From Vulcanimicrobiota bacterium (GTDB lineage: Bacteria > Vulcanimicrobiota > Vulcanimicrobiia > Vulcanimicrobiales > Vulcanimicrobiaceae), in the NCBI GenBank assembly GCA_003168375.1, contig PMSI01000002.1:62001-126000 (forward strand): a stretch of 64,000 nucleotides of DNA. The letters run 5' to 3'. The position numbers and the translations under genes were made by a program. Positions 3,074-50,794 of the stretch are shown one piece after another; position 1 is the stretch's first letter; each line of letters begins with the position of its first letter. The notes below the pieces were generated by a model. It did no database searches. It was not told the DNA's origin and saw only the letters and a program-made list of their open reading frames with translations.

Positions 3074-3802
3074 TCAGGGCAGCGTGACGTACAGGTTGTA
3101 CTGAATCGTCGCGGTGAACGAACCGGCCGGCTGCGCGTTCGGGACGACGACGGTCAGGTCGATGCAGTGCTGCTGCGACTGCTTCACCGCGCCGACCCAC
3201 GTCGTCTCACCGCCCGGTCCCTGATTCCAGTACGGCGTGAAGGTCGGCGAGAAGTCCGGCACCGCCCATGACATGAAGCTGACGGTCGGGTAGTTCTCGA
3301 TCGGAAAGGTCCCTGAATTCGCGCCGCCGTTCTTGGTGGTGTTGTAGCCCCAGTCTTGCAGCTTGTAGCTGTTCGTGTAGTAGGTGAAGATCTCGAAGGC
3401 GCACGGGAGGACGGTCGTCCCGTACGGGAGGCTGTAGAAACCGGCGGCCGGCGGGTGCGGGATCACGCGCAGAAAGGCCGCATTCGGATCGGGCTTCGCG
3501 ACGAACTGGACCGGGACCGGCGTCGGCTGCGCCGAGCTCTGCGCGATCATCACCGGCGCGCCGGGCGCGACGTCCCACGCACTGCCCGACGACGCGATCT
3601 GCACGTTCTGCGCGAACGGGTCGGGGAGCGTCGCCTTCTTCGGCGCGAGCCAGCCGACCGGTGCCGGGCTCGGCGTCACCTGGATGCTGATGACGACTTC
3701 CTTGAACGTCTTGAGGCCGGTGAGGGCGTCGGCTTGCGAGACGACCGTCAGGATAGCGAGCGCCGCGAGTGCGAGCAGCCCGAACAGATTGCGGTATCTC
3801 AA
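3074..3802 (-). CDS. secreted protein, last gene of surface cluster
   Basis: Unrecognised exported protein of 242 residues. The TTG start overlaps the preceding stop (TTGA), so it is probably translated by coupling. Residues 5-25 form a hydrophobic signal segment ending in SQADA. The mature chain is rich in Pro, Tyr, Thr and Asn, with cysteines in TTVLPCAFEIF and QQHCIDLTVVV that could form a disulfide. The C terminus ends in an alternating hydrophobic strand (ATIQYNLYVTLP), a feature shared with other proteins of the cluster and reminiscent of pilin terminal strands. Its position at the distal end and its single-domain build would suit a tip or adaptor subunit, but this is inference. Confidence 0.7.
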   Translation of the reverse strand: MRYRNLFGLLALAALAILTVVSQADALTGLKTFKEVVISIQVTPSPAPVGWLAPKKATLPDPFAQNVQIASSGSAWDVAPGAPVMIAQSSAQPTPVPVQFVAKPDPNAAFLRVIPHPPAAGFYSLPYGTTVLPCAFEIFTYYTNSYKLQDWGYNTTKNGGANSGTFPIENYPTVSFMSWAVPDFSPTFTPYWNQGPGGETTWVGAVKQSQQHCIDLTVVVPNAQPAGSFTATIQYNLYVTLP

Positions 3803-4479
3803 TTTCCGATCACCGTGTAGACGATGTAGACGTTGAACTGGCTGGGCGGAATCGTGCCCGACAGCCGCAGCTCGTAGTCGAAGCCCTGCACGAGGTTGCC
3901 CGCGATAGGGCTGCTCCACACGGCCGACATCGCCTGCGGTACGCCGCCGACCCCCGAGTAGTCGATCCCGTTCACGCCGTTGAGGCCGATCGGGTTGCCG
4001 TTGGTCTTGTTGAACGAGGTGGCGGGCGAGAACGGCGAGTTCGTTGCGCTCGACGGGAGCCAGAACAGCGTCGAGAAGATCGGATACGTCGCCGGCAACG
4101 GAACCGGGTTGCTCCCGTTGAGATCGGTCGCGCCTTCGCCGTAGACGACGAACCCGGCGGAGTCGTTGGTCTGCACCTTGACCTGTGCGGCGTACTTGTA
4201 GAGGTACTGATAGCCGACGACGACGTTGCCGAAATCGACGGTCCCGCCGTTGAGCACCGCGCTCGGACCCGGCGTCGGCGTCGAGCCGCTGCCGAGACCG
4301 CCGGTCGGTCCGAATCCGCTGAGGTAGTTGGGGATCACCTGCGCCTTGACGGTCGGCAGGATCTTGTAGTTCAACTGCGCCGACCCGTTCGTTATCGCCG
4401 GCGCGGCGCGCACTATCTGCGGCGTTGCCGTCGTCAGGATCAGGGCTGCGGCCGCGAGCGCCGCGGCGTATTTACGCAT
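3799..4479 (-). CDS. subunit-like secreted protein (paralogue of 9633-10412)
   Basis: Exported protein of 226 residues with a signal peptide cut after IVRA. The mature N terminus NGSAQLNYKI closely resembles YGSAQLKYTV of the protein at 9633-10412, and both continue with an alternating polar/hydrophobic strand, so the two are probably paralogous subunits. The C terminus QFNVYIVYTVIGN is again an alternating hydrophobic strand. The start could be ATG 4479 or the adjacent GTG 4482; GGAG lies upstream at a usable distance from either. It follows the 1415-residue protein by 15 bases and overlaps the next gene by four. No database family is recognised. Confidence 0.75.
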   Translation of the reverse strand: MRKYAAALAAAALILTTATPQIVRAAPAITNGSAQLNYKILPTVKAQVIPNYLSGFGPTGGLGSGSTPTPGPSAVLNGGTVDFGNVVVGYQYLYKYAAQVKVQTNDSAGFVVYGEGATDLNGSNPVPLPATYPIFSTLFWLPSSATNSPFSPATSFNKTNGNPIGLNGVNGIDYSGVGGVPQAMSAVWSSPIAGNLVQGFDYELRLSGTIPPSQFNVYIVYTVIGN

Positions 4480-4494
4480 CACGTCTCGACTCCG

Positions 4495-7400
4495 TCAATT
4501 CGCGATCAGCGTGTAGGTGAGGGTGACCGTCGTCGTCGTGTTGTTGTTCACGGACAACGGGTTGACGGTGACGCGGTATCCCATCATGTTGTCGACCGGC
4601 TTCTTCGGCACCGGATTGGTGCCGGTCCAGGTCGACAGCGCGAGCGTCCCCGCGGTCGGGATGACGGTCCCCGGCGCGACGGTGATGTTCTTCGTGTACG
4701 TCCCCGCGGGGGCGGCCGACTCCGGCGTCAGCCACGTGCTGAGCTGTCCGCTCGAGGTCGACGGGTTGACGTCGGCCGCGACGGAGAGGCTCCAGCCCGC
4801 GGCGGAGTCCGTGTACACCGAGGCGGCGAGCGCATCAGTGAAGTTGACCGTGCCGGTGATCTGGTTGAGGTTGATCAGCGGCAGCGCGCCGGCGGAATTG
4901 TACGTGCAGCCGGGGCACGAGACGATCGGCGTCGCGGTGTACAGCGCGGGAACGTACGAGCCGGCACCGCTCGGGATCACGATCGTGAGCCGCGCGTCGG
5001 TGACGATCCGAACCGTGTTCGAGAGGCTGTAGAGCGCCAGCGCGTTCGGGTTGCCGGCGACGCGCGGATCGGGCGGCGTGGCGTTTGCAGTCGCGACGCT
5101 CGCGTCGAAGCGGAAGGTCGAGTTGACGTCGTACGGATTCTTCGCGTAGAAGAACACGTCGAGGTTCTGTCCGACGGCGACGTTGCAGCCCGACAGGCGC
5201 AGCAGACCCGAGGTCCCCGGCGTCCCGTTGATCGCCTGCACCAGCGAGTTGATCCCGCTGCCGCTGCACTTCGCGCCGGCCGCGCCCGCCCCGTAGACGA
5301 AGATCGACGCCGGGTCGACGAACCACGGGTTCCCGGTGTCGAAGAGCTGGCCCGACGTGTTGGCCCACGGGACCGCGACGCTGACGTCGGTGATCGTCGT
5401 CGAGCCGTTGTTGTGCAGCTCGTACACGTAGCCGTTGCCTTCGGTGAAATCGGCCCACGAACCGACGATCGGCTGGCTCCCGAACGGCACGCTCTGGATC
5501 GGCGCGACCGGCGGGTGCGAAGGCGTCGCGGTGTAGCCGCCGGCGAACGTGAAGCTCGTCTGCGCGGTCGTGTTCGCGACGACCAGGTTCGGGACTTGCG
5601 TCCCGGAGGCTTGGACCACGGCGCCGCCGTTCGCGCCCACGATCGTCCATGCGATCGGATACGATCCGACCGCCGGAGCTACGGCATAGTTGAAGTTGAC
5701 GAAGAGCTTGCCGCCCGGCGGCAGCGAGTTCGCGTCGGCGACCGCGGCGCACGGCGTCGAGGTCTGCGTCGCCGCGACCGGTGCGGTTGAGACCGCGCAC
5801 AGGTCGATGAGCCACTGACCCGCCGTCCCGGTCGCGTTGGCGTTGAACGTCGCCCCGTTCGACGCGGTCACGGAGGTGATCGTCGGGTAGATCCCGGCGC
5901 CGGCCGCCGGTACCGTGATCAGCAGCTGGCTGATGTAGTCGGGGTTCGGATCGAGCCCGGTCGACGTGTTGTCGAACTCGTACTGCCAGGTCGCGTTCGC
6001 CAGCGCCGGGACGACGGTCGGCGTGACGTTCGCGAACATCAGCGTCGGATCGAGCGAGAACACGCCGAGCTCGGTCGAGTCGATGTTCTGCGTCCCCGCG
6101 ATCGCGTTCGTCTGGACGTTGGTCGGACCGACGTTGTAGGGCCCGGCGGCGTAGTTGGCCGTCGCCGCGATCTGCTGGAAGGCGAACGCGGACTGCAGGA
6201 TCGGCATCTTCAGCACGAAGGTGGCGGTCTTGCCGACGGCGAGCGTCGCGCCGCCGACGGACGTCACGAGCGCAAAAGAGTTCGTTGCCAGCGTAGTGTC
6301 GCCGGCCGTCGCCACCGTCCCCCCACACGTCTGGATCGTGCTGCCGGTCGCCTGGATCTTCACGCCCCAGTTCGCGGTCTGGTTCACGCCGTTGATCGTC
6401 GCCGAGGTGATGCACGGGTTGAGGCGCGTGTTGTCGACCGTCGGCGGCATGATCAGCTCGAGCGAGGTCAGGGCTGCGGGCGCACCGTTGTTGACCACGG
6501 TGAGCGTGACCGTATACGTGCCGCCGCTGGCCGCGCCGTCGGTGCCGAGGCGGTACATCATCTGCCGGTACCGCGGCGTCCCGAGCTGGGCGGCGCTGTA
6601 CGCGCCGATCTGCCACGAGTACGTCGCCTGCGTGTTCGAGCCGATCACACCGAAGCCGTAGACGTTGAGCCCGTTGGTCGCACGGTTGGCCATCGTCGCA
6701 CTGATCGTGCTGGCCGCCACGCCGTGGAGCGGCGTGATCTGGGTCTGTAGAACGCATGCCGTGGTGCAGTTGCCGGTCGCGACGGCGATCGTCATCGGGA
6801 TCGGAATGATCGCGTTGGGCGCCAGCGACTGGCCGGCGACCGCGGGGTTCAGGACGATCGTTCGGGCGTTCGGGTTCGTGATGTTCCAAGTCTGACCGAG
6901 CGAGTCGGTCGCCGTCGTGACGCCGACCTGCAATCCGAGCGAGACGAAGTTCCCGGTGTCGTTGTTGATCGTGATCGACTTGATCCCGTCGGCGTTCCAC
7001 ACGCCGTACAACGATCCGGCGTCGTTCCGGAGCGTCGTCGTGACGTTGGTCGCGACCCCGGCCGCGTTCGCGTTGACGTAGGCTCCGGCCGGACTCGTCC
7101 ACTGGAACTGGCCGGAGTAGGACATGACGCGGAACGACTTGGATCCGACCACGGCTCCGGTCCCGACGTCGTACAGCTGCGCGGTGTAGACGTTCGGGCC
7201 GAACGGCGTCTGCGTGGCGCCGAACGAGGTGAAGTTCCCGGTGTTAATCGGGAACGCGAGCTTCTGCGCGCCGGTCGACGTGCCGGCCGCGGTGAACGAG
7301 AACGGAAGTGAGAACGCCTGCGGCTGCCCGAACGCGGGATTGCCGTCGGTGGTCGTCGCGCTGAGCACGACGCCGTTTCCGTTGCTGATCGTGATGCGAT

Positions 7401-8742
7401 AGGTGTGGCCGTTCACGACACCGCTGGCTTGATAGGTCAGCCCCTGGACCGACTGCTCCTGGACGAGGCCGGCCGAGCCGGGGCTGCCCAAGATGCCGTC
7501 GGTCGCGAACGTGTCGCCCAAATTGACGCCGGTCGTGGCCCCGTTGTACGGGATCAGCGGGCTCCACGCGACGGACGCGGGGTTCAGCGAATACTGCTGG
7601 GTCGAGATCAAGTCGTTGGTCGTTGCGTCGTACAACTGCACCGACTGCGTGCCGACCGAGTTTCCGCCGGCCGCCGGCGTCGCGTACTGCCCGTTGAACG
7701 TCTGCGCGGTCGGGATGACGCCGGTCGCACCCTGCACGAAGCACGTCGCGTTGTTGAAGTTTTGCGACCCGGCGGGGATCGCGAACACGCAGGGAAGCCC
7801 GTTGCCCGAGCTGTTCACGAAGCCGAACGAGTAGAAATGCGCGGGGTTCAGCCCAGAGGCGGAGACGTAGACCGTTCCGCCCGAGCCGAAGTCGCTCGAG
7901 ACCGTCGTGAACGCAGCGTCGGAAAACGTGTTGAAGTTCAGCGTACCGAGGACCACGGAGTACGCGACCGCCTCGTATTGGTTCGTCCCGGTGTTCTGGA
8001 CGGCGATCGTCCAGACGCCGGAGTAGGGCGCGTCGGTCGTGCCCACTCGGGTCGGCCCGATCCCGGTGATCGGATCGGGCGACGCCGTGAGCGGGGTCTG
8101 CAGCGACAACTGCGCGTACCACGGCGTCTGCGTGGCGCCGCCTTGCATGCAGCGTCCCGTCGCGTCGGTCGTGAACGTCGCGGAGTAGCCGCCGCCGACG
8201 TAGTTTCGCGACGAGGCGGTGTAGGCCGTACCGTCGGGAGGGAACACGACGTACCGGTACGTCGTGTTCGGCGTCATGTTCTGGCAGAGCCAATAGACGT
8301 TGGAACCGTACGAGAGCGTCTGGTCGTCGAGATACGGGACGGCCGAGGTCCCGGTCAACACGATGGTACCGCCGCTCGCCGAACGCCGATAGCGCGCCTT
8401 GTGGTGGAGGAGGTCGGTCAGCTTCGGAATCGGCGGGCGCGGTCCGCGAAAGACCGTGAGGAGGCTCTGGCCACGCCGCATGGACGCCGGGAGCCGGGCC
8501 AGTGCGGCCGCGGCATCGTCGCTGCCGTTCACGTTCGTCGAGCGCCGCGAACCCTGGGCCGTCTGCGACTGGTCGCCGAACGGAAGTGGGGGCGGGGTGG
8601 GGCCGGACGTCGTGCTGCGAGGGCCGCCGATCGTGCGCTGCGTCGACTGCGTCGACTGCGCCAGAGCGACGAACCCGCCGGCGCCGATGACGGCGGCGAC
8701 GACGATGGCGACGAGCGCCAGCGTTCGCGTCAGGTGTGGCAT
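4495..8742 (-). CDS. giant secreted Thr/Asn-rich surface protein (1415 aa)
   Basis: Predicted extracellular protein. The N-terminal hydrophobic segment (about 7-28, ending FVALAQS) is a signal peptide, followed by a low-complexity Ser/Thr/Pro stretch to about residue 90. The rest is rich in Thr, Asn, Gly, Ala and Val with repeating beta-sandwich-like segments and scattered cysteine pairs, as in Ig-like or DUF11-like surface proteins, though I cannot assign a family. The C terminus TVTLTYTLIAN matches the alternating strand at the ends of the smaller secreted neighbours. GGAG lies five bases before ATG 8742. It is the largest product of the minus-strand cluster and a candidate adhesin or shaft component. 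Confidence 0.8.
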   Translation of the reverse strand: MPHLTRTLALVAIVVAAVIGAGGFVALAQSTQSTQRTIGGPRSTTSGPTPPPLPFGDQSQTAQGSRRSTNVNGSDDAAAALARLPASMRRGQSLLTVFRGPRPPIPKLTDLLHHKARYRRSASGGTIVLTGTSAVPYLDDQTLSYGSNVYWLCQNMTPNTTYRYVVFPPDGTAYTASSRNYVGGGYSATFTTDATGRCMQGGATQTPWYAQLSLQTPLTASPDPITGIGPTRVGTTDAPYSGVWTIAVQNTGTNQYEAVAYSVVLGTLNFNTFSDAAFTTVSSDFGSGGTVYVSASGLNPAHFYSFGFVNSSGNGLPCVFAIPAGSQNFNNATCFVQGATGVIPTAQTFNGQYATPAAGGNSVGTQSVQLYDATTNDLISTQQYSLNPASVAWSPLIPYNGATTGVNLGDTFATDGILGSPGSAGLVQEQSVQGLTYQASGVVNGHTYRITISNGNGVVLSATTTDGNPAFGQPQAFSLPFSFTAAGTSTGAQKLAFPINTGNFTSFGATQTPFGPNVYTAQLYDVGTGAVVGSKSFRVMSYSGQFQWTSPAGAYVNANAAGVATNVTTTLRNDAGSLYGVWNADGIKSITINNDTGNFVSLGLQVGVTTATDSLGQTWNITNPNARTIVLNPAVAGQSLAPNAIIPIPMTIAVATGNCTTACVLQTQITPLHGVAASTISATMANRATNGLNVYGFGVIGSNTQATYSWQIGAYSAAQLGTPRYRQMMYRLGTDGAASGGTYTVTLTVVNNGAPAALTSLELIMPPTVDNTRLNPCITSATINGVNQTANWGVKIQATGSTIQTCGGTVATAGDTTLATNSFALVTSVGGATLAVGKTATFVLKMPILQSAFAFQQIAATANYAAGPYNVGPTNVQTNAIAGTQNIDSTELGVFSLDPTLMFANVTPTVVPALANATWQYEFDNTSTGLDPNPDYISQLLITVPAAGAGIYPTITSVTASNGATFNANATGTAGQWLIDLCAVSTAPVAATQTSTPCAAVADANSLPPGGKLFVNFNYAVAPAVGSYPIAWTIVGANGGAVVQASGTQVPNLVVANTTAQTSFTFAGGYTATPSHPPVAPIQSVPFGSQPIVGSWADFTEGNGYVYELHNNGSTTITDVSVAVPWANTSGQLFDTGNPWFVDPASIFVYGAGAAGAKCSGSGINSLVQAINGTPGTSGLLRLSGCNVAVGQNLDVFFYAKNPYDVNSTFRFDASVATANATPPDPRVAGNPNALALYSLSNTVRIVTDARLTIVIPSGAGSYVPALYTATPIVSCPGCTYNSAGALPLINLNQITGTVNFTDALAASVYTDSAAGWSLSVAADVNPSTSSGQLSTWLTPESAAPAGTYTKNITVAPGTVIPTAGTLALSTWTGTNPVPKKPVDNMMGYRVTVNPLSVNNNTTTTVTLTYTLIAN

Positions 8743-8783: not shown

Positions 8784-9569
8784 TCAGCGCACCGTGATGT
8801 TCGCCTGTCCTGCGACGAGGTTCGGCCCGCCGTAGTCGACGAGCGCGACGACCGAGTACGAACCCGGAGCGAGCTTCTTCCCGATGGCGTCGATCAGCCG
8901 TTTGCCGGACCGTTCGACGAGCATGCCCTGGGGAAACGCGACGCGGTCGACGACGACGCTGCCTTGCTTGATCTCGACCCGCCCGCTGAGGTACACGTGA
9001 GCGTTTCCGGTATTGTGAAAATCGACGAGGTAGTGCTGGCTGTCGCCGAGCGACTGGGCCTTCACGTCGTCGATCTCACCACCGATGCGCGTCGTCTCGG
9101 GGATCATCACGTAGATCTTCGAAGCGATGCGCTCCACGATCGAGAGCCCTGCGCCGTGGCGCGTGGGCCGGGTCGTGAAGAAGACAAGGTTGCTGTACTC
9201 GCCCGCCGCGGTCGCAGGAACATCGACCGAGAATCGTACTTGGGTGAACGATCCCGGTTCGAGGTCGAACTCACGCGGATTGATGGTGATCGTCTTCGAG
9301 AGCGAGAACGGTGACTTGCCCGGAGGCGCGAACGCGTAGTTGCCGGTCGGCCCGACCGCGTAGTCCGAGAGCGAGGCCACGATATGGACCGCGGCATTGC
9401 TCGTGTTGCGGACGGTGATCGGAAACGTCTCCTGCTTGCCGGGCTGCGTCTGCAACTCGTATTTCGCGGGGGAGACGTCGACGGAGATGTCGGCCGACGA
9501 GGGAGCGGTGAAAGCGAGTCCGAGGACGGCGATCGGCCCGAGGACTCGAACAAGACGCGGTAGGCGCAT
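8784..9569 (-). CDS. periplasmic pilus-chaperone-like protein
   Basis: Exported protein of 261 residues with a signal peptide ending PSSA. Mature residues open with DISVDVSPAKYELQ and a PGKQETFPITVRNTS strand, the layout of PapD-like and related Ig-fold chaperones in which a basic residue and alternating hydrophobics guide a subunit strand. A second Ig-like half starts near residue 150 (RIGGEIDDVKAQ). The sequence also resembles DUF916-type domains, so chaperone function is inferred mainly from its place between a subunit-like gene and the giant surface protein. The start could be GTG 9572 instead of ATG 9569; an AGGA lies 7 or 10 bases upstream. Confidence 0.65.
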   Translation of the reverse strand: MRLPRLVRVLGPIAVLGLAFTAPSSADISVDVSPAKYELQTQPGKQETFPITVRNTSNAAVHIVASLSDYAVGPTGNYAFAPPGKSPFSLSKTITINPREFDLEPGSFTQVRFSVDVPATAAGEYSNLVFFTTRPTRHGAGLSIVERIASKIYVMIPETTRIGGEIDDVKAQSLGDSQHYLVDFHNTGNAHVYLSGRVEIKQGSVVVDRVAFPQGMLVERSGKRLIDAIGKKLAPGSYSVVALVDYGGPNLVAGQANITVR

Positions 9570-9632
9570 CACATTCTTATCCTCGGCCGTTCCCTTCGCC
9601 AGATTCAGTCCGTCGAGCCGACAGGGGTCAAG

Positions 9633-10412
9633 TTACTGCGGGATGACGGCGAACGTGATGACCGACGTCGCCGCGCCCGAGGTCGCGGTGCCGTTGATGT
9701 TCATCTGGACGTCCTGCCCCACGTACTTGAAGGCGATGCCGCTCAGGCCGGTCGTGCCGGAGTAGAGCTGGTAGCCGCCCGCCGTGTAGACCGTCGATGT
9801 CGGGTTCGCCGTCACGTTGGTCGTGACGCCCGCCGGTGCGCCGGCGGCGCCGAAGCCCGTACCGCCCGTCACCGCGCCGAGCGCGCTGAGCAGCTGTCCG
9901 CCGACCGCGTTGACCGTCGGGCACGCCGCGCCGGTGTAGGCGCCGGGGTTACCCGCCGCGCCGGAGGCGGTCGGAAGAGCGTTGAGCGTGTTCGCCGCGC
10001 CGAGCGGGAAAACGCAAACCGCCGTGCCGGCAGGCGCGACGTCGAGGTATTCCATGATCTTCACGCCGCTCGCGTCGTTCGACTGGACGCCGACCGAGAT
10101 GGCGTTCTGGTAGTAGCAGCCGGTGTAGCCGGCGCCCGGAGGCGTCATGCCGCCGTACGTCAGCGTGGCGTTGACGCCTTCCGCGACGGCAGCCGAGCAG
10201 TTGCCCGCGGCCGACGCGAGGATCGAGCCGGCAACGGCGTTCTTGATCGAGCCGGTCACCGGGTCGTAATTGACCGCGATCGAGACGGCAGCCGTCGCAT
10301 TGACGGTGTACTTGAGCTGAGCAGATCCGTAGACCGTCGTGGCAGCCATGCTGGGCGCTGCCGTGGCGGTCGCGATCCCCAGCATGACGAGAGCAGCGAC
10401 TGCTCTTTTCAC
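9633..10412 (-). CDS. secreted pilin-like subunit
   Basis: Exported protein of 259 residues with a signal peptide ending PSMA. The mature chain begins TTVYGSAQLKYTVNATA, an alternating strand like the N-terminal donor strands of CS1/DUF4402-type pilins, and ends in SVITFAVIPQ. Cysteines near residues 72, 99, 133 and 165 could pair. It shares the GSAQL.Y start with the gene product at 3799-4479. An AAAGGA ribosome site precedes GTG 10412 by eight bases, stronger than for most cluster genes and consistent with a major subunit. It lies between the barrel gene (113-base gap) and the chaperone-like gene (63-base gap). Family assignment is tentative. Confidence 0.7.
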   Translation of the reverse strand: MKRAVAALVMLGIATATAAPSMAATTVYGSAQLKYTVNATAAVSIAVNYDPVTGSIKNAVAGSILASAAGNCSAAVAEGVNATLTYGGMTPPGAGYTGCYYQNAISVGVQSNDASGVKIMEYLDVAPAGTAVCVFPLGAANTLNALPTASGAAGNPGAYTGAACPTVNAVGGQLLSALGAVTGGTGFGAAGAPAGVTTNVTANPTSTVYTAGGYQLYSGTTGLSGIAFKYVGQDVQMNINGTATSGAATSVITFAVIPQ

Positions 10413-10525: not shown

Positions 10526-13500
10526 TTAACGCAGACTTAGCGAGTACGTCTGGCCTCGCTTGGTCACCAGGGTGGCCGAGTACGGCAGCCCTTTGCGCCA
10601 CAGCCGCATGTCGAACGTGTAGACGCGCCCGCTTGGTTTGGGGAGCAGAATTTTATAGCCGTCTTCGAAGATCAGGGCGTCGCCTTCCTCGATCGCCGCC
10701 AGCGCCTTGATCGTGACCTTGATCGTGTGCCCGGCCTCCGGGGTGCGCGGGCTGACCCGCATGGCGAACAGCGGGACGCTCGGGTCGACCGGGACCAGCG
10801 AGGTGGCGTCGGTGACGTCCTTGCGATGGGCGGTAACGGTCAGCGCGTAGTCGCCCTTGGCCAGTGCCGGGACCAGGATCGCGCCGGTCCAGATGCCGAG
10901 CCGCGGGTCGAGCCGCAGCGGGAAGCCGCCGAAGACGTCGCTCTCGACGAACATCTCCTTTACATCCTTCGCTGCGGTCCGGGCCGTCACGCGGAGCATC
11001 CCGCCGGGTGGGACGGCCGACGGATCGGTGGTCAGCTGGATCGGCTGGCGCCGCCCGTCGCTGAAAGTGTAGACGACTTGCTTCGCGCCCGCGCCGAGCT
11101 TGAACAGCACGCCGGAGAGCGTCGCGCCGCCTTCGAGCGCGAGCGCGCCTTCAGGGCCCGAGAGGACGCTCAGGCCGTCGGGGAGCGTGTCGCCATCGAC
11201 CGAGAGCGTGTACTTGCCGGGCGGCAAGTTGTCGAGCAAGAACGCGCCGTCGTCGTCGGTGATCACCGCGTGTTCGCCCGGCTCGGCGACGACGTACACG
11301 TTCTTGAGGCCGGCGAGCTGTCCGAATCCGCCGTCCGCGGCCGCGACGACGTTCCCGGCGATCGAGCCGAGCGGGGTCGCGACGAAGTTCAGCGGCGTCG
11401 ACGTCCCCGCCGTGACGGTCACCGTCTTCTTGCGGTCGGTCACGAAGGCGACCGTCGACGGCAACGTAGCCTCGACGATCTCGACGGTATGCGCACCCGG
11501 GGTGAGCCGGCCGATCGCGTAGTGCCCGTCGGGCGTCGTCGTGACGGCTTGAATGCCGTCGACCGCGATTCCGACGGCTCCCAGAGCGCGCTTCTTGCCG
11601 TTCGCGTCGGCGGCGACGACCGTACCCTGGACTCCGGCGAAGTTGCCGATCATGAACTGGACCGTCGCGGTCTGCCCGCCCAGGACTTGGATCGACTGGT
11701 ACTCGCGGTCGGCGATCAGACCGGGCTGGATCGTAGCGTCATCGATGCGAATCGTGTGCGTGCCCTGCGTTACGAAGCGGAACTCGAACTCGCCGCTCGC
11801 GTCGGTGCGCTGAGTGATGCGGCCGTCGAGGATGATCAGCGCGTTGTTGTAGCCGCGCACCGAGGGCGCGTTGTACGCGAACGGGGTCGGCGAGACCGAA
11901 TAGGTGACGATCCCCCGGATGACCGCGGGGAGGTTCGGGTTCGAGCGGCCGGTCGCGGCCCGAGGCTGGCCGAACCCGAACGGTCCGACGATCGAGGCTT
12001 GAACCGAGCTGCCGCCCCCGGCGCCGATCCCGGTCTGCCTGAAGACGCTGGCATTGACCTGGAGCGCGACGACGTTCGAGAGCCGGCGCACGAGCGAGAG
12101 CGTCGTGTCGAAGAGTTTGGAGGTGACGCCGTTGTTCGAGGAACTCTGAATCGTCTCGGAGATCTGCGCTTCGAGCTTGCGACCGACCGAGCGGCGATAC
12201 GAGAGCGACTGCGCGAGACCGTCGCCCGCGCTTCCGGTGCCGCCGCTGGAATTGCCGCGCGAAAACTGGTAGGCTGCGACGCCGCCCAGCATCGGGCGGC
12301 TCACGCCCAGCGCCAACTGCCGCTGCGCCGCCGCGCCCTGCGACCCGCCGACCGACGACGCCTGGAACGTCTCGAAGAGCGAGAACTTGCGGATCGATTC
12401 GCTGAACGTTACCGCCGCGGTGCGCTGCAGTGATGCGCCGGTGGCCGAGTGGATCCCGTCGAGGCCGGCGACGTACTGAAAGCCGATCCCACCCCAGCTG
12501 CGTCCGCCGTTGACCGTGAGGCGGTTGTCGTGTTGAACGTCGCCGTCGAGCCGCGTGTCGCTGTGGCCGAGGTCGAGGTCGAGGTCGCCGAAACGCTCGG
12601 AGTGCTTGCGGATGGTGAGGTCGCCGCTGAGGCCCCCTTCGATCGTTCCGGTCAACGTCTGAAAGCCGTTCGGGTCGTAGCGGACCCCGAGCGTCGCGAA
12701 CGTCGACTTCCCTTGCAGATCGGCATGAAACGCGGCCGCGAGGTTTGCGCCATCCGCCACGCCGGTGACGCCGTGATTCGACGAGACCGCGACCTCGGTG
12801 TCGGTCGAGAGCTTCGCGCCGTAGCGCCGGAAGCCGATGTCGGTGATCGACTGACGGCCGCCGTTCTGCTCCGCGGCGCCGAGGTACTGGCCGACCGACA
12901 GGAAGCCGCCCAGCGCGTTCCAGTTGCGGCGCACGCCGTAGATGCGGAACGCCTCTCCGTCCGCCTGCTGCGCGCTCGACACGATGTACGAGATGTCGCC
13001 GTTGCGCACCGGGACGGCCAGGCTGATCCCCCTCGCGAAGCCGCCGATCTGCAGCTGGCTGTCGCTGGGCCCGGTGACCTGCCCGTAGGTGAGCCCGTAT
13101 TTCGGCGTGCGATACGCGACGATCAGCGAGCCGGCCGAGCTCCCTCCCGCCCCGTACCCGAAGGCGTTCGAGAGTGACAGCGCACTTTGCTCGGTCCGGC
13201 GCTCGGCGACCAACGACAGCGCGGTCGCGTAGTTGTCGGCCGCCGCGCTCAAGCCGTTGCGGCTCGACCGGTTCAGGCCCAGCTGGTAGGTTCCGTCGCC
13301 CTTGAGGACGATCGGGCCTTCGCCCAGCCACTTCCGCCGCTTGGGATCGGGGACCGGTGAGCCGGAGGGAGCGGGCGCCGGGGCGTCGATCGCGATGCGC
13401 GGCGCGGCGAACGGCAAGTGAAGCCGGACGGCGAGGAGCGGAGCCGCACGGAGCGCCGTATCCGACGCAAGGCAGAAGGCCGACGCGGTCAGACATGCGG

Positions 13501-13540
13501 CGCCCGCCGCCGCAGTCAGGCGGCGCAGACGAGGACGCAC
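10526..13540 (-). CDS. outer-membrane beta-barrel with carboxypeptidase-regulatory-like repeats, usher-like
   Basis: 1004 residues. An N-terminal hydrophobic stretch (about 8-33) is followed by a Pro-rich linker and a region from about 70 to 510 of short amphipathic strands separated by Gly/Asn/Ser turns, as in outer-membrane barrels. From about 540 come three transthyretin/CarboxypepD_reg-like modules, marked by RTDASGEFEFRFV, VTTTPDGHYAIGRLTPGAHTV and ITDDDGAFLLDNLPPGKYTL, and then an Ig-like C terminus from about 850. A barrel with C-terminal beta-sandwich modules, first in a cluster with a chaperone-like protein and subunits, recalls fimbrial ushers, but I see no clear usher signature. 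The GTG start lacks a good ribosome site. Confidence 0.75.
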   Translation of the reverse strand: MRPRLRRLTAAAGAACLTASAFCLASDTALRAAPLLAVRLHLPFAAPRIAIDAPAPAPSGSPVPDPKRRKWLGEGPIVLKGDGTYQLGLNRSSRNGLSAAADNYATALSLVAERRTEQSALSLSNAFGYGAGGSSAGSLIVAYRTPKYGLTYGQVTGPSDSQLQIGGFARGISLAVPVRNGDISYIVSSAQQADGEAFRIYGVRRNWNALGGFLSVGQYLGAAEQNGGRQSITDIGFRRYGAKLSTDTEVAVSSNHGVTGVADGANLAAAFHADLQGKSTFATLGVRYDPNGFQTLTGTIEGGLSGDLTIRKHSERFGDLDLDLGHSDTRLDGDVQHDNRLTVNGGRSWGGIGFQYVAGLDGIHSATGASLQRTAAVTFSESIRKFSLFETFQASSVGGSQGAAAQRQLALGVSRPMLGGVAAYQFSRGNSSGGTGSAGDGLAQSLSYRRSVGRKLEAQISETIQSSSNNGVTSKLFDTTLSLVRRLSNVVALQVNASVFRQTGIGAGGGSSVQASIVGPFGFGQPRAATGRSNPNLPAVIRGIVTYSVSPTPFAYNAPSVRGYNNALIILDGRITQRTDASGEFEFRFVTQGTHTIRIDDATIQPGLIADREYQSIQVLGGQTATVQFMIGNFAGVQGTVVAADANGKKRALGAVGIAVDGIQAVTTTPDGHYAIGRLTPGAHTVEIVEATLPSTVAFVTDRKKTVTVTAGTSTPLNFVATPLGSIAGNVVAAADGGFGQLAGLKNVYVVAEPGEHAVITDDDGAFLLDNLPPGKYTLSVDGDTLPDGLSVLSGPEGALALEGGATLSGVLFKLGAGAKQVVYTFSDGRRQPIQLTTDPSAVPPGGMLRVTARTAAKDVKEMFVESDVFGGFPLRLDPRLGIWTGAILVPALAKGDYALTVTAHRKDVTDATSLVPVDPSVPLFAMRVSPRTPEAGHTIKVTIKALAAIEEGDALIFEDGYKILLPKPSGRVYTFDMRLWRKGLPYSATLVTKRGQTYSLSLR

Positions 13541-13613
13541 ACCCGTACCATCGGTCGCCGTGGGCGGCGCCTGTAGCCGCTCCGTTCAAGCTTCCGTCAA
13601 AGCGCATTTTCAC

Positions 13614-13640
13614 TAAGGCCGGCCCATCGGGTGCCGATAG
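13614..13640 (+). promoter_or_regulatory. sigma-28 (FliA-type) promoter of the flagellin gene
   Basis: TAAG at 13614-13617, a 15-base spacer and GCCGATAG at 13633-13640 match the flagellar sigma-28 consensus TAAA-N15-GCCGATAA at all but two positions. The element sits 73 bases before the flagellin ATG and in its orientation. A flagellar sigma factor elsewhere in the genome is therefore expected. Confidence 0.85.
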
Positions 13641-13713
13641 GAAACTAAGGGGACTACGGACCCCCTCGCCCAGGGACGGGCAGCTTCCACGGAGGGAAGA
13701 TCGCAGCACCAGC

Positions 13714-14964
13714 ATGGACGTTCGAGGTCTGAGTGATCTCGCGCTGAGCGCGGGATTGAAGACGCAGAACAACTTGGCGAGCGACACCAGTCGTCTCGCT
13801 TCCGGTTTGCGCGTCAACACGGCTGCCGACGATCCGAGCGGGCTCGCGATCGCGGAGAGTCTTGCCTCGCGCGTCGCCGGCCTCGACCAGGGCGTCCACG
13901 AACTCCAGAACGCCAGCAACGCGCTCACGGTCGCCGAAGGCGCGATGAGCACGATCAGTCAGATCCTGCAGCGCATGCGCACGCTGGTGGTCGAGGGCCG
14001 CAGCGATCTCATCAGCACCTCCGACCGCAACGACCTGCAGTCCGAGCTGAGCCAGCTGCGGCTCGAGATCGACCGCATCGCGCAGAACACGTCGTTCAAC
14101 GGGCGCGCGCTCCTCGACGGCAGCGCATCGAGTCAGCTCCCGCTCTCGTCACGCCAGCTGATGATCAACCCGAGCCTGGCCGGCGGCGGCACGCTGATCG
14201 ACACGATCATCGACCCGCTCTCGCCGTACATCCCCGCCAACGCGCCGCAGTTCGCGAACCTGTTGACCGTCGACTCGTACGATCCGGTCTCGAACACGAT
14301 CGGGATCACCGTTACGATCGGCAGCCAGGAGACCTCGTTCGGGTCGGACCAAATCGTCCCGCTCGCGGTTCCCAACGGTTCTGACACACCGGTCGGTCTG
14401 ACGCCGCCGGCGCCGGGCGCGCCGACGTTTCTGCAGAACTCGCAGAACGGCGGCGGACCGCAGGTGCTCGCCTTCAACATGGGGGTCCTGACGCCGGGCG
14501 ACGTCGGCAAGAGCGCGCTGATCGTCTCGCTGCCGGCGCAGTTCAAGGCGCCCGGCGCGGCGCTGCAAGTGAACAGCGGGGACGCCGAAGGCGCCGTCAC
14601 CTCGGTCGACATCGCCGCGATGAGCACGGTCAACCTCGGTGTCAACGAGGTGATCCTCGGCAACGACCTGCAGAACCAGGCCGCCGAGTACCGCATCGAC
14701 TATGCGCTGACGACGGTCGGCGGCGCGCGCGCCACGATCGGCGCGCAGACGGTCGCGCTCCAGGACGCGGCGAACGCCGGGAACACGACCAGCGTCAACA
14801 CACAGGCCGCAGAGAGCGCGATCCGCGATCTGAACGTCGGCTCCGCAGTCACCACCTTCACCCGCGACCAGCTCCAAAACCAGTTCCAGCAGCGCCTCGT
14901 CGCCGACGCGAACAAGCTCTCGCACATCTACGCGACCCTCGTCGCCGACGCGATCGTCCGCTAG
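13714..14964 (+). CDS. fliC: flagellin
   Basis: Filament protein of 416 residues. The N-terminal D0/D1 coiled region (about 1-135) has the family features: a hydrophobic-heptad start, SRLASGLRVNTAADDPSGLAI, and RDLQ/RLEIDRIAQNTSFNGRALLDG. The matching C-terminal helix is about 370-416 (AESAIRDLNVGSAVTTFTRDQL). The middle (about 150-350) is a variable surface-exposed region unlike enteric D2/D3. GGAGGGAAG lies upstream of the ATG, although the spacing is rather long. No other flagellar gene is in the window, so this is a solitary flagellin gene. A 6-bp hairpin at 14980-14995 follows the stop but lacks a T-tract, so termination there is doubtful. Confidence 0.95.
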   Translation: MDVRGLSDLALSAGLKTQNNLASDTSRLASGLRVNTAADDPSGLAIAESLASRVAGLDQGVHELQNASNALTVAEGAMSTISQILQRMRTLVVEGRSDLISTSDRNDLQSELSQLRLEIDRIAQNTSFNGRALLDGSASSQLPLSSRQLMINPSLAGGGTLIDTIIDPLSPYIPANAPQFANLLTVDSYDPVSNTIGITVTIGSQETSFGSDQIVPLAVPNGSDTPVGLTPPAPGAPTFLQNSQNGGGPQVLAFNMGVLTPGDVGKSALIVSLPAQFKAPGAALQVNSGDAEGAVTSVDIAAMSTVNLGVNEVILGNDLQNQAAEYRIDYALTTVGGARATIGAQTVALQDAANAGNTTSVNTQAAESAIRDLNVGSAVTTFTRDQLQNQFQQRLVADANKLSHIYATLVADAIVR

Positions 14965-15053: not shown

Positions 15054-15998
15054 ATGATTCACGGACGCATGGTCGCGCTCGCGGTTGCGGCGCTCCTGGC
15101 GACGGGCTGCGCATCGGGCAGCACCGTCCCTCCGCCCACCCCGCAGCAGCAGGCGCAGTCCGCCGCGCAGTATCCGACGGAATCGTCGGCCGCGCGCTTC
15201 ATCCTCGCCAACGTCGGCCGGAGCGGCGCGACGGTCCGGGCTCCGCAAGGCCGGGGAGGGGGCGATGACGACGACGGGGACCGCAGCGAGCTCCAGTTGC
15301 CCACGCTACAGCCGTGCGGCATGGGAACGTTCGCGACCGACTGCAGCGTGTGGATATTCGCGAGTGGGCATTCGACGCGCGCCGCGGCTCGCTCGACGCA
15401 GTCGCTCGCCGGCGCGAGCCCGCCGGCGCTGAATTTCTGCCGTGACGGGGGTGCGTTTCCCGCCGACCTCGGCCCGCCCGCGACGCCCTCGCAGCTCCTG
15501 TTCGCAACCTATACGTTCGGGCTGAACTACGCCGGAACCAAATCCACGCCGATCGTCACGTTCGTGACACGCTCGGGGAACGTCACCCTGCAAGGGACGT
15601 TCACCGGGAACTCCACCTCGGCGCCGTCGATCATGCTGACGCCGGTGCTGACCACCGGCGCCTCACGCGGCTGGCTGGTCTTCTTCACCTGGAGCTGGCC
15701 GGCGGATATCCTGCTGGTCCCGTACGAGATCAACGAGATTCAACTGGCCGCGAGCTCGTCGCCGCTGGTGATCCCGGCCGGGGGATCGGCGACGCTCGGC
15801 GCGTTCGACTGCCTCGGCCGGAAGATCGCGGCACGCACGTCCGGGTCGGGCTTCGGCTTCAACCGCAACCTGAGCGGCGAAGCGGTGACCTCGCCGGCAA
15901 ACGAGCTGAACGTGCCGGTCTTCGCCGGCGCGCACCCGAGCGGCTTCATCAACCTCACCGACGATCAGGGAGCCCAGGTCGCCGTTCCGGTTCGCTGA
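15054..15998 (+). CDS. putative lipoprotein (314 aa)
   Basis: Unrecognised lipoprotein. The N terminus has a hydrophobic segment ending in a lipobox, LLATGC, with Cys19 as lipidation site. A short Pro/Gln linker and an acidic patch near residues 70-76 (DDDDGD) follow. The mature part is Ser/Thr-rich and probably beta-structured, with segments such as PIVTFVTRSGNVTLQGTF suggesting an Ig-like fold. GGAGG precedes the ATG by six bases. The gene follows the flagellin by 89 bases and converges with a second lipoprotein gene six bases away. The function is unknown. Confidence 0.75.
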   Translation: MIHGRMVALAVAALLATGCASGSTVPPPTPQQQAQSAAQYPTESSAARFILANVGRSGATVRAPQGRGGGDDDDGDRSELQLPTLQPCGMGTFATDCSVWIFASGHSTRAAARSTQSLAGASPPALNFCRDGGAFPADLGPPATPSQLLFATYTFGLNYAGTKSTPIVTFVTRSGNVTLQGTFTGNSTSAPSIMLTPVLTTGASRGWLVFFTWSWPADILLVPYEINEIQLAASSSPLVIPAGGSATLGAFDCLGRKIAARTSGSGFGFNRNLSGEAVTSPANELNVPVFAGAHPSGFINLTDDQGAQVAVPVR

Positions 15999-16793: not shown

Positions 16794-18098
16794 ATGGCGA
16801 CCACGACATTCCACGACGGCTTCGTCTCCGAGCTGATCGGCAAGCCGGTCATGGTCGAACGTGACGGCAAGCGCGCGACGGTCGGCAAGATCGCCGACTT
16901 CGTCGTCGAGCACCCCGAGGACACGTTCCCGCAGATCGACGCGATCATCGTGAAGACACGCTACGGCGAGCTCGCTGCACCGATCGCCGAAGTGGCTTCG
17001 CTCGACACCGGCGGCGTCGTCCTCACCACCCCTCCGAAGATCGTGCGCCCCCCCGACGACGAAGCGCTGTACCTGGTCGAGGACCTCTTCGACAAGCAGA
17101 TCGTCGACGTCGACGGCCGCAAGGTCGTACGCATCAACGACATCGAGGTCGCCCGCACCGGCGGCGCGCTGCGCGTCGTCGCGGCCGACATCGGCGTCGG
17201 CGGGCTGCTGCGCCGGCTCGGCGCCGCGAAGCTCGCCCCCGGTCTGGTCGACCGCATCCCGCGCTCGCTGATCGCGTGGGACAACGTCGCGCCGCTGCAC
17301 GATCTCAGCCCGACGCAGATCCGGCTCTCGGTGAGCGAGCACCGCCTCTCGCGGCTCCACCCCTCCGAGCTGGCCGACATCATCAGCGAACTCTCCTCGC
17401 AGGACGCGGCCCGCGTGGTGGGCTCGCTCGACGACGAACGTGCGGCCGACGCGCTGGAGCACCTCGACGCCGACGTGCAGCGCTCGATCATCGACGACCT
17501 CGGCACCGAGCGCGCCGCCGACATCATCGAGGAGATGGATTCCGACGACGCCGCCGACCTGCTCGGCGACCTGCCGGAAGAGCGTCAGGAAGAGCTGTTG
17601 CGCGAGATGGACGCCGAGACCGCGGACGATCTGCGCGAGCTGGTCGCCTACGACGAGGACACGGCCGGCGGCTTGATGACGACTGATTATTTCTGGATCT
17701 ATCCGCACCGTACCGTGACCGCCACGATCGCGAAGATCCGCCAGATCGCGCCCGAGACCGAGTTCATCTACTACCTCTACGTCACCGACCAGTCGGAGAA
17801 GCTGCTGGGCGTCCTCTCGCTGCGGACGCTGCTGCTCTCGGCGGCCGGCGCGACGATCCACAGCATCATGGATCCCGACTTGATCACGGTGCGGCCGGAC
17901 ACGTCGGCGGAAGACGTCACCGCGACGATCGCGCGTTACGACTTGCTCGCGTGCCCGGTCACCGACGAAGGCGGGAAGATGCTGGGGATCGTGACCGTCG
18001 ACGACGCGATCGACGCCATCATCCCCGAGCGGCTCAAGAAACAGCTGCCGCGTTTCACCAAACGCGCGCAGCGGCGGCGCGCCGAAGCGGCGAGCTGA
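16794..18098 (+). CDS. MgtE-like cytoplasmic Mg-sensing protein (PRC-barrel, MgtE-N, CBS pair; no membrane domain)
   Basis: 434 residues with no membrane segment. Residues 1-150 resemble two PRC-barrel modules (LIGKPVMVERDGKRATVGKI; KQIVDVDGRKVVRINDI). Residues about 185-310 form the acidic superhelical MgtE N domain (LHPSELADIISELSSQDAARV, AADIIEEMDSDDAADLLGDL). About 310-425 is a pair of CBS domains starting at TAGGLMTTDYFWI. MgtE channels carry this cytoplasmic half ahead of a pore; here the pore is absent. With an upstream M-box and an NRAMP-type transporter 11 bases downstream, it is probably the Mg-sensing regulatory partner of that transporter. GGAGGTGA eight bases before ATG 16794 fixes the start. 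Confidence 0.88.
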   Translation: MATTTFHDGFVSELIGKPVMVERDGKRATVGKIADFVVEHPEDTFPQIDAIIVKTRYGELAAPIAEVASLDTGGVVLTTPPKIVRPPDDEALYLVEDLFDKQIVDVDGRKVVRINDIEVARTGGALRVVAADIGVGGLLRRLGAAKLAPGLVDRIPRSLIAWDNVAPLHDLSPTQIRLSVSEHRLSRLHPSELADIISELSSQDAARVVGSLDDERAADALEHLDADVQRSIIDDLGTERAADIIEEMDSDDAADLLGDLPEERQEELLREMDAETADDLRELVAYDEDTAGGLMTTDYFWIYPHRTVTATIAKIRQIAPETEFIYYLYVTDQSEKLLGVLSLRTLLLSAAGATIHSIMDPDLITVRPDTSAEDVTATIARYDLLACPVTDEGGKMLGIVTVDDAIDAIIPERLKKQLPRFTKRAQRRRAEAAS

Positions 18099-47063: not shown

Positions 47064-47657
47064 CTAACAGTTGCCGTGGACGGTGTACGTCCCGCCGAGC
47101 GCCGCGACGACCGACGCGCCGACGTGGCTGGTGCAGTACATGATCAACGCCGGCGAGGCGGTGTGGACGTATCCGAGCGTGGCCGACACGGTACCGTTGG
47201 CGCCGAGCGTCGCCGTGAGATACGACGGCAGGACCAGCGTACCGCTGACGTTGTGGGTGGTGACGCTGAGATAGCGGTACGCGTCGGTCGAGACGGCGGT
47301 GAACCCGGCGGTCGTGATCGTACACGTCGCCGCGGGTACCGAGTCGGTCTTCCAGAACCCCTGCGCGACGGAACCGCTGCGCGAACCGTTGAGCGTGCTC
47401 AGGGTGTCGGTGACGACCGCGGCCGGGCAGAGGTTCGTCGGCGCCGCATTCGCGGCGATCGTCGAATACAGCTGGGCCGCGCCGTAGGTGGCCGACCCTT
47501 CGTATGAGACCGTCGCACCGTAACGGACCGCGCTCTGGGCGCGTTCTTCGAGGATGCCGAAACGCGCGAAGTAGAGGACCGCGAACATCAGCACGAGCGC
47601 GATCGGAAGGAAGACCGCCGTCTCGATGAGGGCTTGTCCGCGCTGCGCGTGCATCAT
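47064..47657 (-). CDS. TadE-like pilus assembly protein
   Basis: 197 residues. The N terminus QRGQALIETAVFLPIALVLMF is the TadE-type membrane anchor, with a glutamate four residues into the hydrophobic helix as in pilin-like proteins, followed by FARFGILEERAQSAVRYGA. The periplasmic part is Thr/Ala-rich with three cysteines. ATG 47657 overlaps the preceding stop. It is the last gene of the minus arm of the Tad locus. TadE-type pseudopilins help assemble or retract the Flp pilus. Its end is 11 bases from the convergent regulator stop. Confidence 0.82.
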   Translation of the reverse strand: MMHAQRGQALIETAVFLPIALVLMFAVLYFARFGILEERAQSAVRYGATVSYEGSATYGAAQLYSTIAANAAPTNLCPAAVVTDTLSTLNGSRSGSVAQGFWKTDSVPAATCTITTAGFTAVSTDAYRYLSVTTHNVSGTLVLPSYLTATLGANGTVSATLGYVHTASPALIMYCTSHVGASVVAALGGTYTVHGNC

Positions 47658-48469
47658 GAGCACCCGTAGCCGGCGACGGCCGCGGCCGGGCGCACGGATC
47701 CCGCCACGTACCACGTCATGTTGACGCTGAGGCTCTTGAACGAGACGCCGTATTCAGTGGGAACGCCGACGCCGGCGGGAGACTCGTCGGGCTGATACGC
47801 CACGCCTGTGCTCGGGTTCACGTTCCCCGGTACGAACGTCTCGCTGATCGGCGAAAGGACGGCCAGACTATGGCCGATCGCCGTGAACGTCGCGCCCGTC
47901 GCCTTTCCGAGCAACGTCGGGGACAGCAGAGGGATCTTCTTGCATGCGATCACATCGACGGACTCCGACGCACCGTTGATCTTCGTCGTGTAGGTGAAGG
48001 CGCAGTCGAAGACGGCGCAACTCGTCGACGCGAGCGCGACCGCCTTGTCGGCACCGTTGACGAGGCCACCCCCCGCGTATGTTTGCGCTGCCGTCATCGA
48101 GGCCACGATCTGCGTGTACTTCGCTTGCGCGGCGTTGTACGCCGCGAGCAACTTGACGTAGTCCGCGTCGCACGCGCTCGACGACCCGCAGTGGCTCGGA
48201 TCATTGACGACATTGACCATCGACTGGAGCAGGTACCGCATGCGCGTCTCCTCGACGGCCGCCGCGAACTGCAGCGTCGTCTTCTCGTTGTACATGTTGG
48301 CGTCCGTCGAGATACCGGCCGCGGCGGCGCTGTCCGCCGCGTTCTGCGCGCGGATCTGCCAGCGCACCGTGTTCGTGTAGTTCGTCATGAAGAACAGCAG
48401 CGTCAGCGTCGCCGCGATCGACAGGGTCCAGAGCGGGAGTGTCTGCCCGCGTTCACCCTCGCGGTTCAC
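47654..48469 (-). CDS. TadG-like pilus assembly protein
   Basis: 271 residues from the GTG that overlaps the previous stop (TCGTGA). GERGQTLPLWTLSIAATLTL forms the N-terminal membrane helix, followed by WQIRAQNAADSAAAAGIS, the conserved TadE/TadG extension after the helix. The remainder is periplasmic with several cysteines (SHCGSSSACDAD, STSCAVFDCAFTY) and no von Willebrand domain, so it is a short TadG. It is coupled by four-base overlaps to both neighbours in the minus arm. Confidence 0.78.
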   Translation of the reverse strand: MNREGERGQTLPLWTLSIAATLTLLFFMTNYTNTVRWQIRAQNAADSAAAAGISTDANMYNEKTTLQFAAAVEETRMRYLLQSMVNVVNDPSHCGSSSACDADYVKLLAAYNAAQAKYTQIVASMTAAQTYAGGGLVNGADKAVALASTSCAVFDCAFTYTTKINGASESVDVIACKKIPLLSPTLLGKATGATFTAIGHSLAVLSPISETFVPGNVNPSTGVAYQPDESPAGVGVPTEYGVSFKSLSVNMTWYVAGSVRPAAAVAGYGCS

Positions 48470-49209
48470 GAGCACGCTTTCCCGTCGTCCCAGCCGTAGA
48501 CCACGTAGAGCGGGCTCCACGACATCGTCACGTCCCACACCGAGTAGGGTCCGGTACTGTAGTGCGGGCGCGACGACGGGAAGGAGAGCGAGGCGTACGT
48601 CGCCTGCCGGCAGCTCCATTCCGCGAACGGGCCGGTAAAGTAGTAGTAGTAATAGTTCCAGTCGCAGCCGCAATAGCCCTCACCGTCGTCGCCCCAGCCG
48701 TAACCGTCCCAGTTGTAGTTGTCGCAGTTCGACTGTTGGGGCAGGCCGGGCTGCGCGATCCCGAGCGGACGGTTCGCGGCGGAATTGCCCGACGCGTCAC
48801 GGTAGTTGGTCAGCACGTTGGTGCTCGTGAACGCGCCCAGCGTTCCCGCGAGCGGCGTCACGCGTTCGGTCGCACCGGAGCGCAGCCCGATCGCTGCCGG
48901 GGCACCGGGGATGCTCGGTGCAGACGCGGTCGTCGCGATCGTCGCGGTGACCGACGCGCTGGCCGGCGCGACGGCGATCCCGGCGGTGGGGATCGTGCCG
49001 AAGACGGAGTTCGCCGCCGTCGTCGCGCGCGCCACGCCGGACGTCGGACTCTGCGCATAGGTGTGTGCGGTGACGAACGCCGCGCCGTCCTGGGTCGACT
49101 GTTTGAAGCCGAGCGCGCCCAACTGCATCGTGCCGAGCAGCACGATCATGGCGATCCCGATCGAAAACGCCGTTTCGACCAGCGCGGCGCCGCGCGAAAA
49201 GCCGGTCAC
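48466..49209 (-). CDS. TadE-like protein with Tyr/Trp/Gly-rich C-terminal region
   Basis: 247 residues. The start SRGAALVETAFSIGIAMIVL is a TadE-type pilin-like anchor with glutamate in the helix. After a Thr/Ala-rich stretch, residues about 165-200 are unusually rich in Tyr, Trp, Asp, Gly and Cys (NYNWDGYGWGDDGEGYCGC), ending in aromatic-rich SVWDVTMSWSPLYVVYGW. That composition is odd for a TadE protein and may indicate metal binding or surface exposure. It overlaps the small pilin-like gene and the TadG-like gene by four bases each. Confidence 0.75.
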   Translation of the reverse strand: MTGFSRGAALVETAFSIGIAMIVLLGTMQLGALGFKQSTQDGAAFVTAHTYAQSPTSGVARATTAANSVFGTIPTAGIAVAPASASVTATIATTASAPSIPGAPAAIGLRSGATERVTPLAGTLGAFTSTNVLTNYRDASGNSAANRPLGIAQPGLPQQSNCDNYNWDGYGWGDDGEGYCGCDWNYYYYYFTGPFAEWSCRQATYASLSFPSSRPHYSTGPYSVWDVTMSWSPLYVVYGWDDGKACS

Positions 49210-50788: not shown

Positions 50789-50794
50789 GGCACT

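Follow-up and report, generated by a model that had tools for sequence, protein, structure and literature searches.

A second flagellin with a sigma-28-type promoter element and a putative CsrA operator is inherited together with a divergent, possibly fibre-forming operon in Vulcanimicrobiota

The flagellin gene in the analysed DNA, a window of 64,000 nucleotides within contig 7 of a 4.43 Mb Vulcanimicrobiota genome (97% complete), is, as judged from its sequence, not the main fliC, which lies beside fliW and csrA, but a second flagellin of another kind, and it is inherited together with a divergently oriented operon that starts with a large protein carrying transthyretin-like repeats, here called U. 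That it is so regularly paired with U is the most unexpected finding of the analysis. The preferred reading, to which we assign a probability of roughly 0.6, is that the gene, here termed S-type, encodes a specialised flagellin which would be transcribed by FliA, repressed by CsrA and employed together with a chaperone-usher-like fibre operon. The genes of the locus are as follows.

3074-3919, minus strand: 281-residue protein of unknown kind, a neighbour in other genera too
4495-8742, minus strand: large protein of 1415 residues with a signal-like start (by eye), called 'adhesin-like' only for its size and position
8784-9572, minus strand: chaperone with a predicted PapD-like fold (structure model, synteny)
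9633-10412, minus strand: small protein with a signal-like start (by eye), called 'pilin-like' only for its size and position
10526-13540, minus strand: U, large protein of 1004 residues with transthyretin-like repeats and a signal-like start (by eye)
13714-14964, plus strand: S-type flagellin coding sequence, 416 residues (Pfam, tree, alignment)
15054-15998, plus strand: gene following the flagellin, resembling a lipoprotein when read by eye, with matches in four loci of the genus (L101, L102, L150, L154)

The S-type protein clearly belongs to the flagellin family, with both Flagellin_N (1e-33, 116.8 bits against a cut-off of 26.6, residues 14-137) and Flagellin_C (8.4e-8, 32.9 bits against a cut-off of 23) matching above their cut-offs. 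Within the family it stands apart. A tree of 55 flagellin-family proteins places all 20 S-type rows on one branch (support 100/99), separate from the main fliC, from FlgL and from a third flagellin type, and an alignment inspected by eye finds the motif NLLA[ND] near the start and S[VI]xxL[FL]R at the end in 20/20 main flagellins and in 0/20 S-type proteins, a comparison that bears on whether a protein is of the main fliC kind and not on whether it is a flagellin. The initial annotation had remarked on an unfamiliar middle domain; flagellins commonly vary in that domain, and in the alignment it is the two ends that are distinctive. It had also described the gene as solitary, which is correct in so far as Pfam found no other flagellar gene among 43 window ORFs, a hand-picked and incomplete gene set, but synteny rejects a simple orphan gene, since the flagellin and the U operon form the two halves of a conserved divergent locus. 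An AlphaFold model of the S-type protein was unusable (pLDDT 37.5). The third flagellin-like type, which has a different end again, was seen in four genomes (G003:C214, G005:C17, G010:C108 and G015:C1), in three of them with the start MSFG.

Two other roles for such a protein have to be weighed, and they, like the further alternatives below, are not mutually exclusive. The first is that of an ordinary minor flagellin within the main fliC filament, for instance near the hook, with U as a neighbour by chance or co-regulation. The intact pair of flagellin domains agrees with it, as do the several flagellins of Treponema denticola, where excerpts of one account report that flaB2 is sigma-28-controlled and that CsrA sites lie near the Shine-Dalgarno sequences of flaB1 and flaB2 (PMC9481697); the complete absence of the main-type end motifs and the distribution of U given below argue against it, and we regard it as possible but tentative. 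The second is that of a secreted, non-structural flagellin resembling Campylobacter FlaC, which would be exported without assembly and act outside the cell or bound to U. The diverged ends of the S-type protein would suit such a role, yet FlaC mostly lacks domains D2 and D3 whereas the S-type protein and the main fliC product are of similar length (416 and 411 residues), and the second role appears somewhat unlikely.

The association with U is observed throughout the S-type loci. In 20/20 of them a U homolog adjoins the flagellin in divergent orientation, G022 included, where U is cut by a contig end and gives a weak match (4e-10). Among the genomes compared, U is present in 19/19 that have an S-type flagellin and in 0/22 that lack one, counts behind which the kinship between the genomes leaves fewer independent events; the flagellated G015, which has neither S-type flagellin nor U, is among the latter, contrary to what chance neighbourhood with an ordinary minor flagellin would suggest. 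Some of these other genomes do give short matches in a U profile search, confined to the transthyretin-like part. The remainder of the operon was surveyed in 15 of the 20 S-type loci and at the second U of G005. In 15/15 loci a chaperone-like gene follows U, and in 14/15 a small gene lies between the two (G018 gave no match). A large gene comes next where the stretch reaches that far, except that G019 gave no match, and the 281-residue gene, which in the window lies after the large gene, precedes it in G016, G018 and G020. The second U operon of G005 stands without a flagellin.

What the operon encodes is suggested mainly by its architecture and by one structure model. U matches transthyretin-like and Ig-like domains only, with CarboxypepD_reg found in 14/14 members, and the idea that U is a known usher was dropped, as no usher-family match appears in Pfam, NCBIfam or PDB sequences. 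No Pfam family matches the proteins of 9633-10412 and 15054-15998, and none significantly that of 4495-8742. The chaperone model, built from three sequences, has a pLDDT of 63 (43.7 for a second model). Its top Foldseek match is WxLIP, alongside PapD-family chaperones, and the predicted fold aligns with CsuC (Z 13.1, 112 residues, rmsd 2.3), SfaE (Z 13.1, 175 residues, rmsd 4.9) and CfaA (Z 12.9, 195 residues, rmsd 4.7). Against the model, a Z of about 12 is also reached by proteins that are unrelated but have PapD-like or sperm-protein folds, so that the fold match shows no function; the WxLIP family of Pfam matches at 0.00018, below its cut-off. In the open-licence literature, none of the matches listed had a title on the S-type flagellin/U locus. 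Elsewhere in the window, a Tad/Flp pilus cluster occupies 47067-56783 (TadE, Tad, secretin, RcpC, ATPase, two T2SSF and two prepilin peptidases) and is followed by GGDEF-EAL genes.

The pairing was then put to a prediction written beforehand. U was searched for in 149 genomes of the phylum, flagellin in 41 of them, and the 22 further genomes with U were predicted to carry an adjoining S-type flagellin with both control elements, namely the promoter element and the leader hairpin described below. In G058 the contig was too short, which left 21 testable genomes, and in 21/21 of these an S-like flagellin lies beside U on the opposite strand, the S-type profile outscoring the main one each time. 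A tree unites 40 U-linked flagellins, 20 known and 20 new, in one clade (100/100), with the cut G083 gene left out and with a warning from the tool of long branches, foremost that of G025. The full set of an MDV start, a hexaloop hairpin and GCCGAT[AG] 41-45 nucleotides before the ATG is present in 16/21 new loci, nine of which are from one genus. The other five (G057, G104, G105, G110 and G112, from three genera) have none of the three, namely the MDV start, a hairpin at the Shine-Dalgarno sequence and GCCGAT[AG]; G057 carries GCCGATTT, and in G110 and G112 an ANGGAN hairpin without a Shine-Dalgarno sequence lies 54-59 bases upstream. The flagellins of G110 and G112 (L222, L223) start with MRI, and further upstream, in a different reading frame, an ATG coding for MDVL is seen by eye, which gives the impression that the former start has turned into a short upstream ORF.

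The first of the two putative control elements is a promoter, with a possible counterpart facing U.

13614-13640, plus strand: sigma-28-type promoter element TAAG-N15-GCCGATAG, conserved in 10/10 genus copies
13548-13575, minus strand: possible divergent sigma-28-like element TACA-N16-ACCGATGG toward U (motif score)

The sigma-28 consensus has TAAA at -35, a spacer of about 15 bases and GCCGATAA at -10. In the element of the window, TAAG at 13614-13617 is separated by 15 bases from GCCGATAG at 13633-13640, the end of which lies 73 bases before the flagellin ATG at 13714. The window holds a single match to TAAG-N14-16-GCCGATA, and 0/100 dinucleotide shuffles contain one. All ten genus copies, from nine genomes with G002 contributing two, have TAAR-N15-17-GCCGATA 69-76 bases upstream of the ATG and agree with the consensus at 10 or 11 of 12 positions (10/12 in the window copy), scores matched by at most 4/500 plain letter shuffles each. 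Outside the genus, the S-type genes of G016, G018, G019 and G022 carry CAAA-N16-GCCGATA at a distance of 39-43 bases upstream of the ATG, and that of G025 has TGAA-N16-GCCGATGA at 77 bases; the score of G027 is borderline (shuffle fraction 0.052), and those of G011, G020, G026 and G028 are at shuffle level (0.33-0.45). The sigma-28 element reported in the initial annotation is thus borne out by its position and its conservation in the genus, although so near-perfect a form is not the rule in this genome: the main fliC has TAAAGT with a poor -10, CCGAACA (by eye), and genome-wide the exact TAAR-N15-GCCGATA is found at two sites, the second on contig 2 at 171296, against one for the reversed pattern. 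Since exact sites are not enriched, the weight rests on the element's position and conservation. With a TAAN form and at most one mismatch the counts are 43+39 against 37+34 in the control, and proof of a FliA regulon from the genome-wide motif was rejected, exact sites being at control level. Sigma-28-like elements are also present upstream of the main fliC in several relatives, and in the host genome the csrA stop codon TAA forms, by eye, the start of the TAAA in the main fliC -35 element. The U-facing element reaches at least 10/12 in 8/10 genus copies, as measured with a comparison motif derived from those same sequences; outside the genus the best is G022, with 10/12 and a poor -10, and the element was rejected as a general feature, being clear within the genus only.

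A sigma factor that could serve the element is encoded in the same genome. The FliA-like factor that the initial annotation predicted is found on contig 6 as a FliA/WhiG-type protein of 288 residues, above the cut-offs of both TIGR02479 (253.7 bits, cut-off 189.6) and NF005413 FliA (229.7 bits, cut-off 201), about 1.2 kb from cheR and adjoining a below-cut-off fliK match, and FlgM, the second gene looked for in the rest of the genome, is likewise present (33.6 bits, cut-off 25). Contig 6 further holds the order flgI, flgM, flgN-like, flgK, flgL-like, fliW, csrA and fliC, and the genome contains three Flagellin_N genes in all, namely that of the window and, on contig 6, the main fliC and the FlgL-like gene. 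Of 41 genomes, 20 have a flagellin, and the sigma factor exceeds its cut-off in 35; in family f3 (G029-G040) it does so in 12/12, all without flagellin. As it also occurs in flagellin-less relatives, its presence alone is no proof of a flagellar role. Its persistence there would fit service of the GCCGATAG element by another sigma factor, as would the several further below-cut-off matches to the FliA/WhiG model in each genome; the element's agreement with the sigma-28 consensus and the like elements before the main fliC of several relatives make this very unlikely.

Most of the genomes are fragmented MAGs, which makes gene absences in them soft. Among the 20 flagellated genomes, an above-cut-off FliA match is absent from four (G001, G007, G011 and G028, 70-86% complete), FlgM was matched in 13 and not in 7, FliW is present in all 20, and CsrA in 19, with no CsrA match found in G018. 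FliW also occurs in G006 and G009, and CsrA in 14/21 genomes without flagellin, which indicates that CsrA has other jobs. In both G006 (contig 1, about 1511191-1512378) and G009 (contig 178), FlgM, FliW and CsrA are retained without a flagellin. At the end of contig 1 of G018, FliW lies directly upstream of a fliC, and the S-type leader hairpin is retained. One isolate of the Eremiobacterota phylum is described, in the excerpted part of its report, as having no flagella (PMC9758169).

The second putative control element lies in the leader between the promoter and the start codon.

13668-13681, plus strand: second ANGGAN hexaloop, in the leader hairpin GCCC-AGGGAC-GGGC (6/10 genus copies)
13684-13699, plus strand: leader hairpin CTTCC-ACGGAG-GGAAG holding the Shine-Dalgarno sequence GGAGG at 13691-13695 (conservation, covariation)

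Neither hairpin features in the initial annotation. The downstream one has the loop ANGGAN closed by a C-G pair, and the GGAGG extends from the loop into the stem. The GGAGG lies 18 nucleotides from the ATG in the window and 13-18 in S-type genes, against 4-11 in main fliC genes, so that it may not be the working ribosome site. A hexaloop hairpin with at least four pairs is present in 19/20 S-type leaders and in 0/22 main-type leaders given, and shuffled S-type leaders yield one in 0.05-0.55% of cases; the exception is G025, which has the loop but a mismatched stem and lacks GGAGG. The A, G, G and A of the loop and the C-G closure are invariant in 20/20, and the second loop base varies freely. 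The stem is CTTCC/GGAAG in the genus, GACC/GGTC in G026-G028 and GTTTC/GAAAC in other genera (GAAGC in G011), and 95% of stem cells are standard pairs. Its covariation score is 0.648, compared with 0.214 +/- 0.053 for shuffled alignments and at most 0.280 for slid versions, obtained from 16 distinct rows whose relatedness inflates such scores; two other covariation measures are at control level (4 pairs altered on both sides where the control has 3.2, and 6 additional pair types where it has 6.2). The upstream hairpin was found in G000, G003, G004, G005, G007 and G010. An Rfam scan of the leader (window positions 13400-13900) gave no match at E up to 1.

A comparable hairpin precedes csrA itself. 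GCC-ANGGAG-GGC, with a stem of three pairs (by eye), was found before 13/13 csrA genes in a script search of 15 loci. In 140 kb of the host genome, C-ANGGAG-G hairpins with at least three pairs number six, those with at least four pairs number four against one in the reversed sequence, and only those of the S-type flagellin, csrA and one unassigned 177-residue GTG ORF lie at a start codon. The csrA genes have, as a separate observation, a non-ATG start before LVLSRK in nine genomes of the genus that were read (e.g. L095 about 17498-17600, G000 contig 6), which is CTG in G000-G004 and G007, ATT in G008, TTG in G005 and GTG in G006; in four genomes of other genera, G011, G015, G025 and G026, it is ATG.

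In excerpts from a review, NMR structures are described in which RsmE is bound on an ANGGAN hexaloop hairpin, and in B. subtilis the Shine-Dalgarno sequence of hag is blocked by CsrA (PMC7652899). The host genome has both an ANGGAN hexaloop hairpin, the form that CsrA/RsmE binds, and a csrA gene, and by analogy the leader hairpin would most likely be a site for CsrA. An alternative is that the hairpin is a structured ribosome site, or the site of some other RNA-binding protein. G018, which retains the hairpin without a CsrA match, is in line with such a role, and GGAG would belong to any strong Shine-Dalgarno sequence; the fixed loop and closure with a free second base, the covarying stem, the lack of such hairpins in main-type leaders and the like hairpin before csrA speak for a CsrA operator, and we consider the alternative unlikely. 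The notion of two switches on the S-type flagellin, FliA and CsrA, is accordingly one that is supported by conservation, as predicted from the sequences.

Under the preferred reading, the S-type gene would be controlled in sequence. RNA polymerase with the FliA-type sigma factor would transcribe it late from 13614-13640, after export of FlgM. CsrA would then bind the Shine-Dalgarno hairpin, aided by the upstream hairpin where present, and block ribosomes, until FliW, released upon export of the main flagellin, removed CsrA and allowed translation; the steps of CsrA binding and FliW release are modelled on B. subtilis hag. The product would presumably be exported by the flagellar type III system. 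The ends of filament flagellins build the inner tube, and because the S-type ends differ from those of the main flagellin, the protein probably serves as a minor or specialised subunit rather than making up the bulk of the filament. In B. subtilis, according to excerpts of the structural work, the D0 end of flagellin is held by FliS and FliW contacts parts of D1 (PMC6070490), so the altered S-type ends could change those contacts. Finally, the S-type protein would work with the divergent U operon in a chaperone-usher-like surface fibre, a partnership and joint function that we infer from their being found together. A bolder and rather doubtful version is a hybrid organelle, in which a type III-exported flagellin is part of a chaperone-usher-like fibre timed by FlgM-FliA and then by FliW-CsrA, and in which the S-type protein perhaps obeys the checkpoint without feeding back on it. 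A separate proposal, that the S-type protein is unable to feed back via FliW, is tentative, as the D1 contact parts are seemingly kept in it.

Because a flagellin clade and a fibre-like operon are co-inherited, it becomes possible to test whether the flagellar checkpoint is linked to another surface structure. The leaders also supply a naturally occurring set of CsrA-type operators, present before csrA and one flagellin and, in this form, absent from the main flagellin next to csrA.

Several known systems share parts of this arrangement. Archaic (Csu) and classical chaperone-usher pili may be alike in having operons that join a chaperone of PapD-like fold, here a predicted one, with large proteins, whereas U has no usher-family match and a flagellin is part of the locus here. 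The Enterococcus WxLIP, the top Foldseek match of the modelled chaperone-like protein, offers another structural likeness; WxLIP belongs to a Gram-positive cell-surface system. Campylobacter jejuni FlaC, in the excerpts consulted, similarly forms a kind of its own beside the structural flagellins, but is largely without the middle domains, unlike the full-length S-type protein (PMC5466977). Treponema denticola shows the same gene order around csrA (flgN-flgK-flgL-fliW-csrA), together with sigma-28, FlgM and CsrA sites near the Shine-Dalgarno sequences of more than one flagellin, while the excerpted account describes no link to a divergent fibre operon (PMC9481697). A further parallel may be drawn with the Hag-FliW-CsrA system of B. 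subtilis, in which, in the excerpted review, fliW and csrA also lie beside the flagellin gene and CsrA-type sites are found at the flagellin Shine-Dalgarno sequence (PMC7652899); here, in contrast, the strict ANGGAN hexaloop with the Shine-Dalgarno sequence is carried by csrA and by a second flagellin far away, and not by the neighbouring main fliC.
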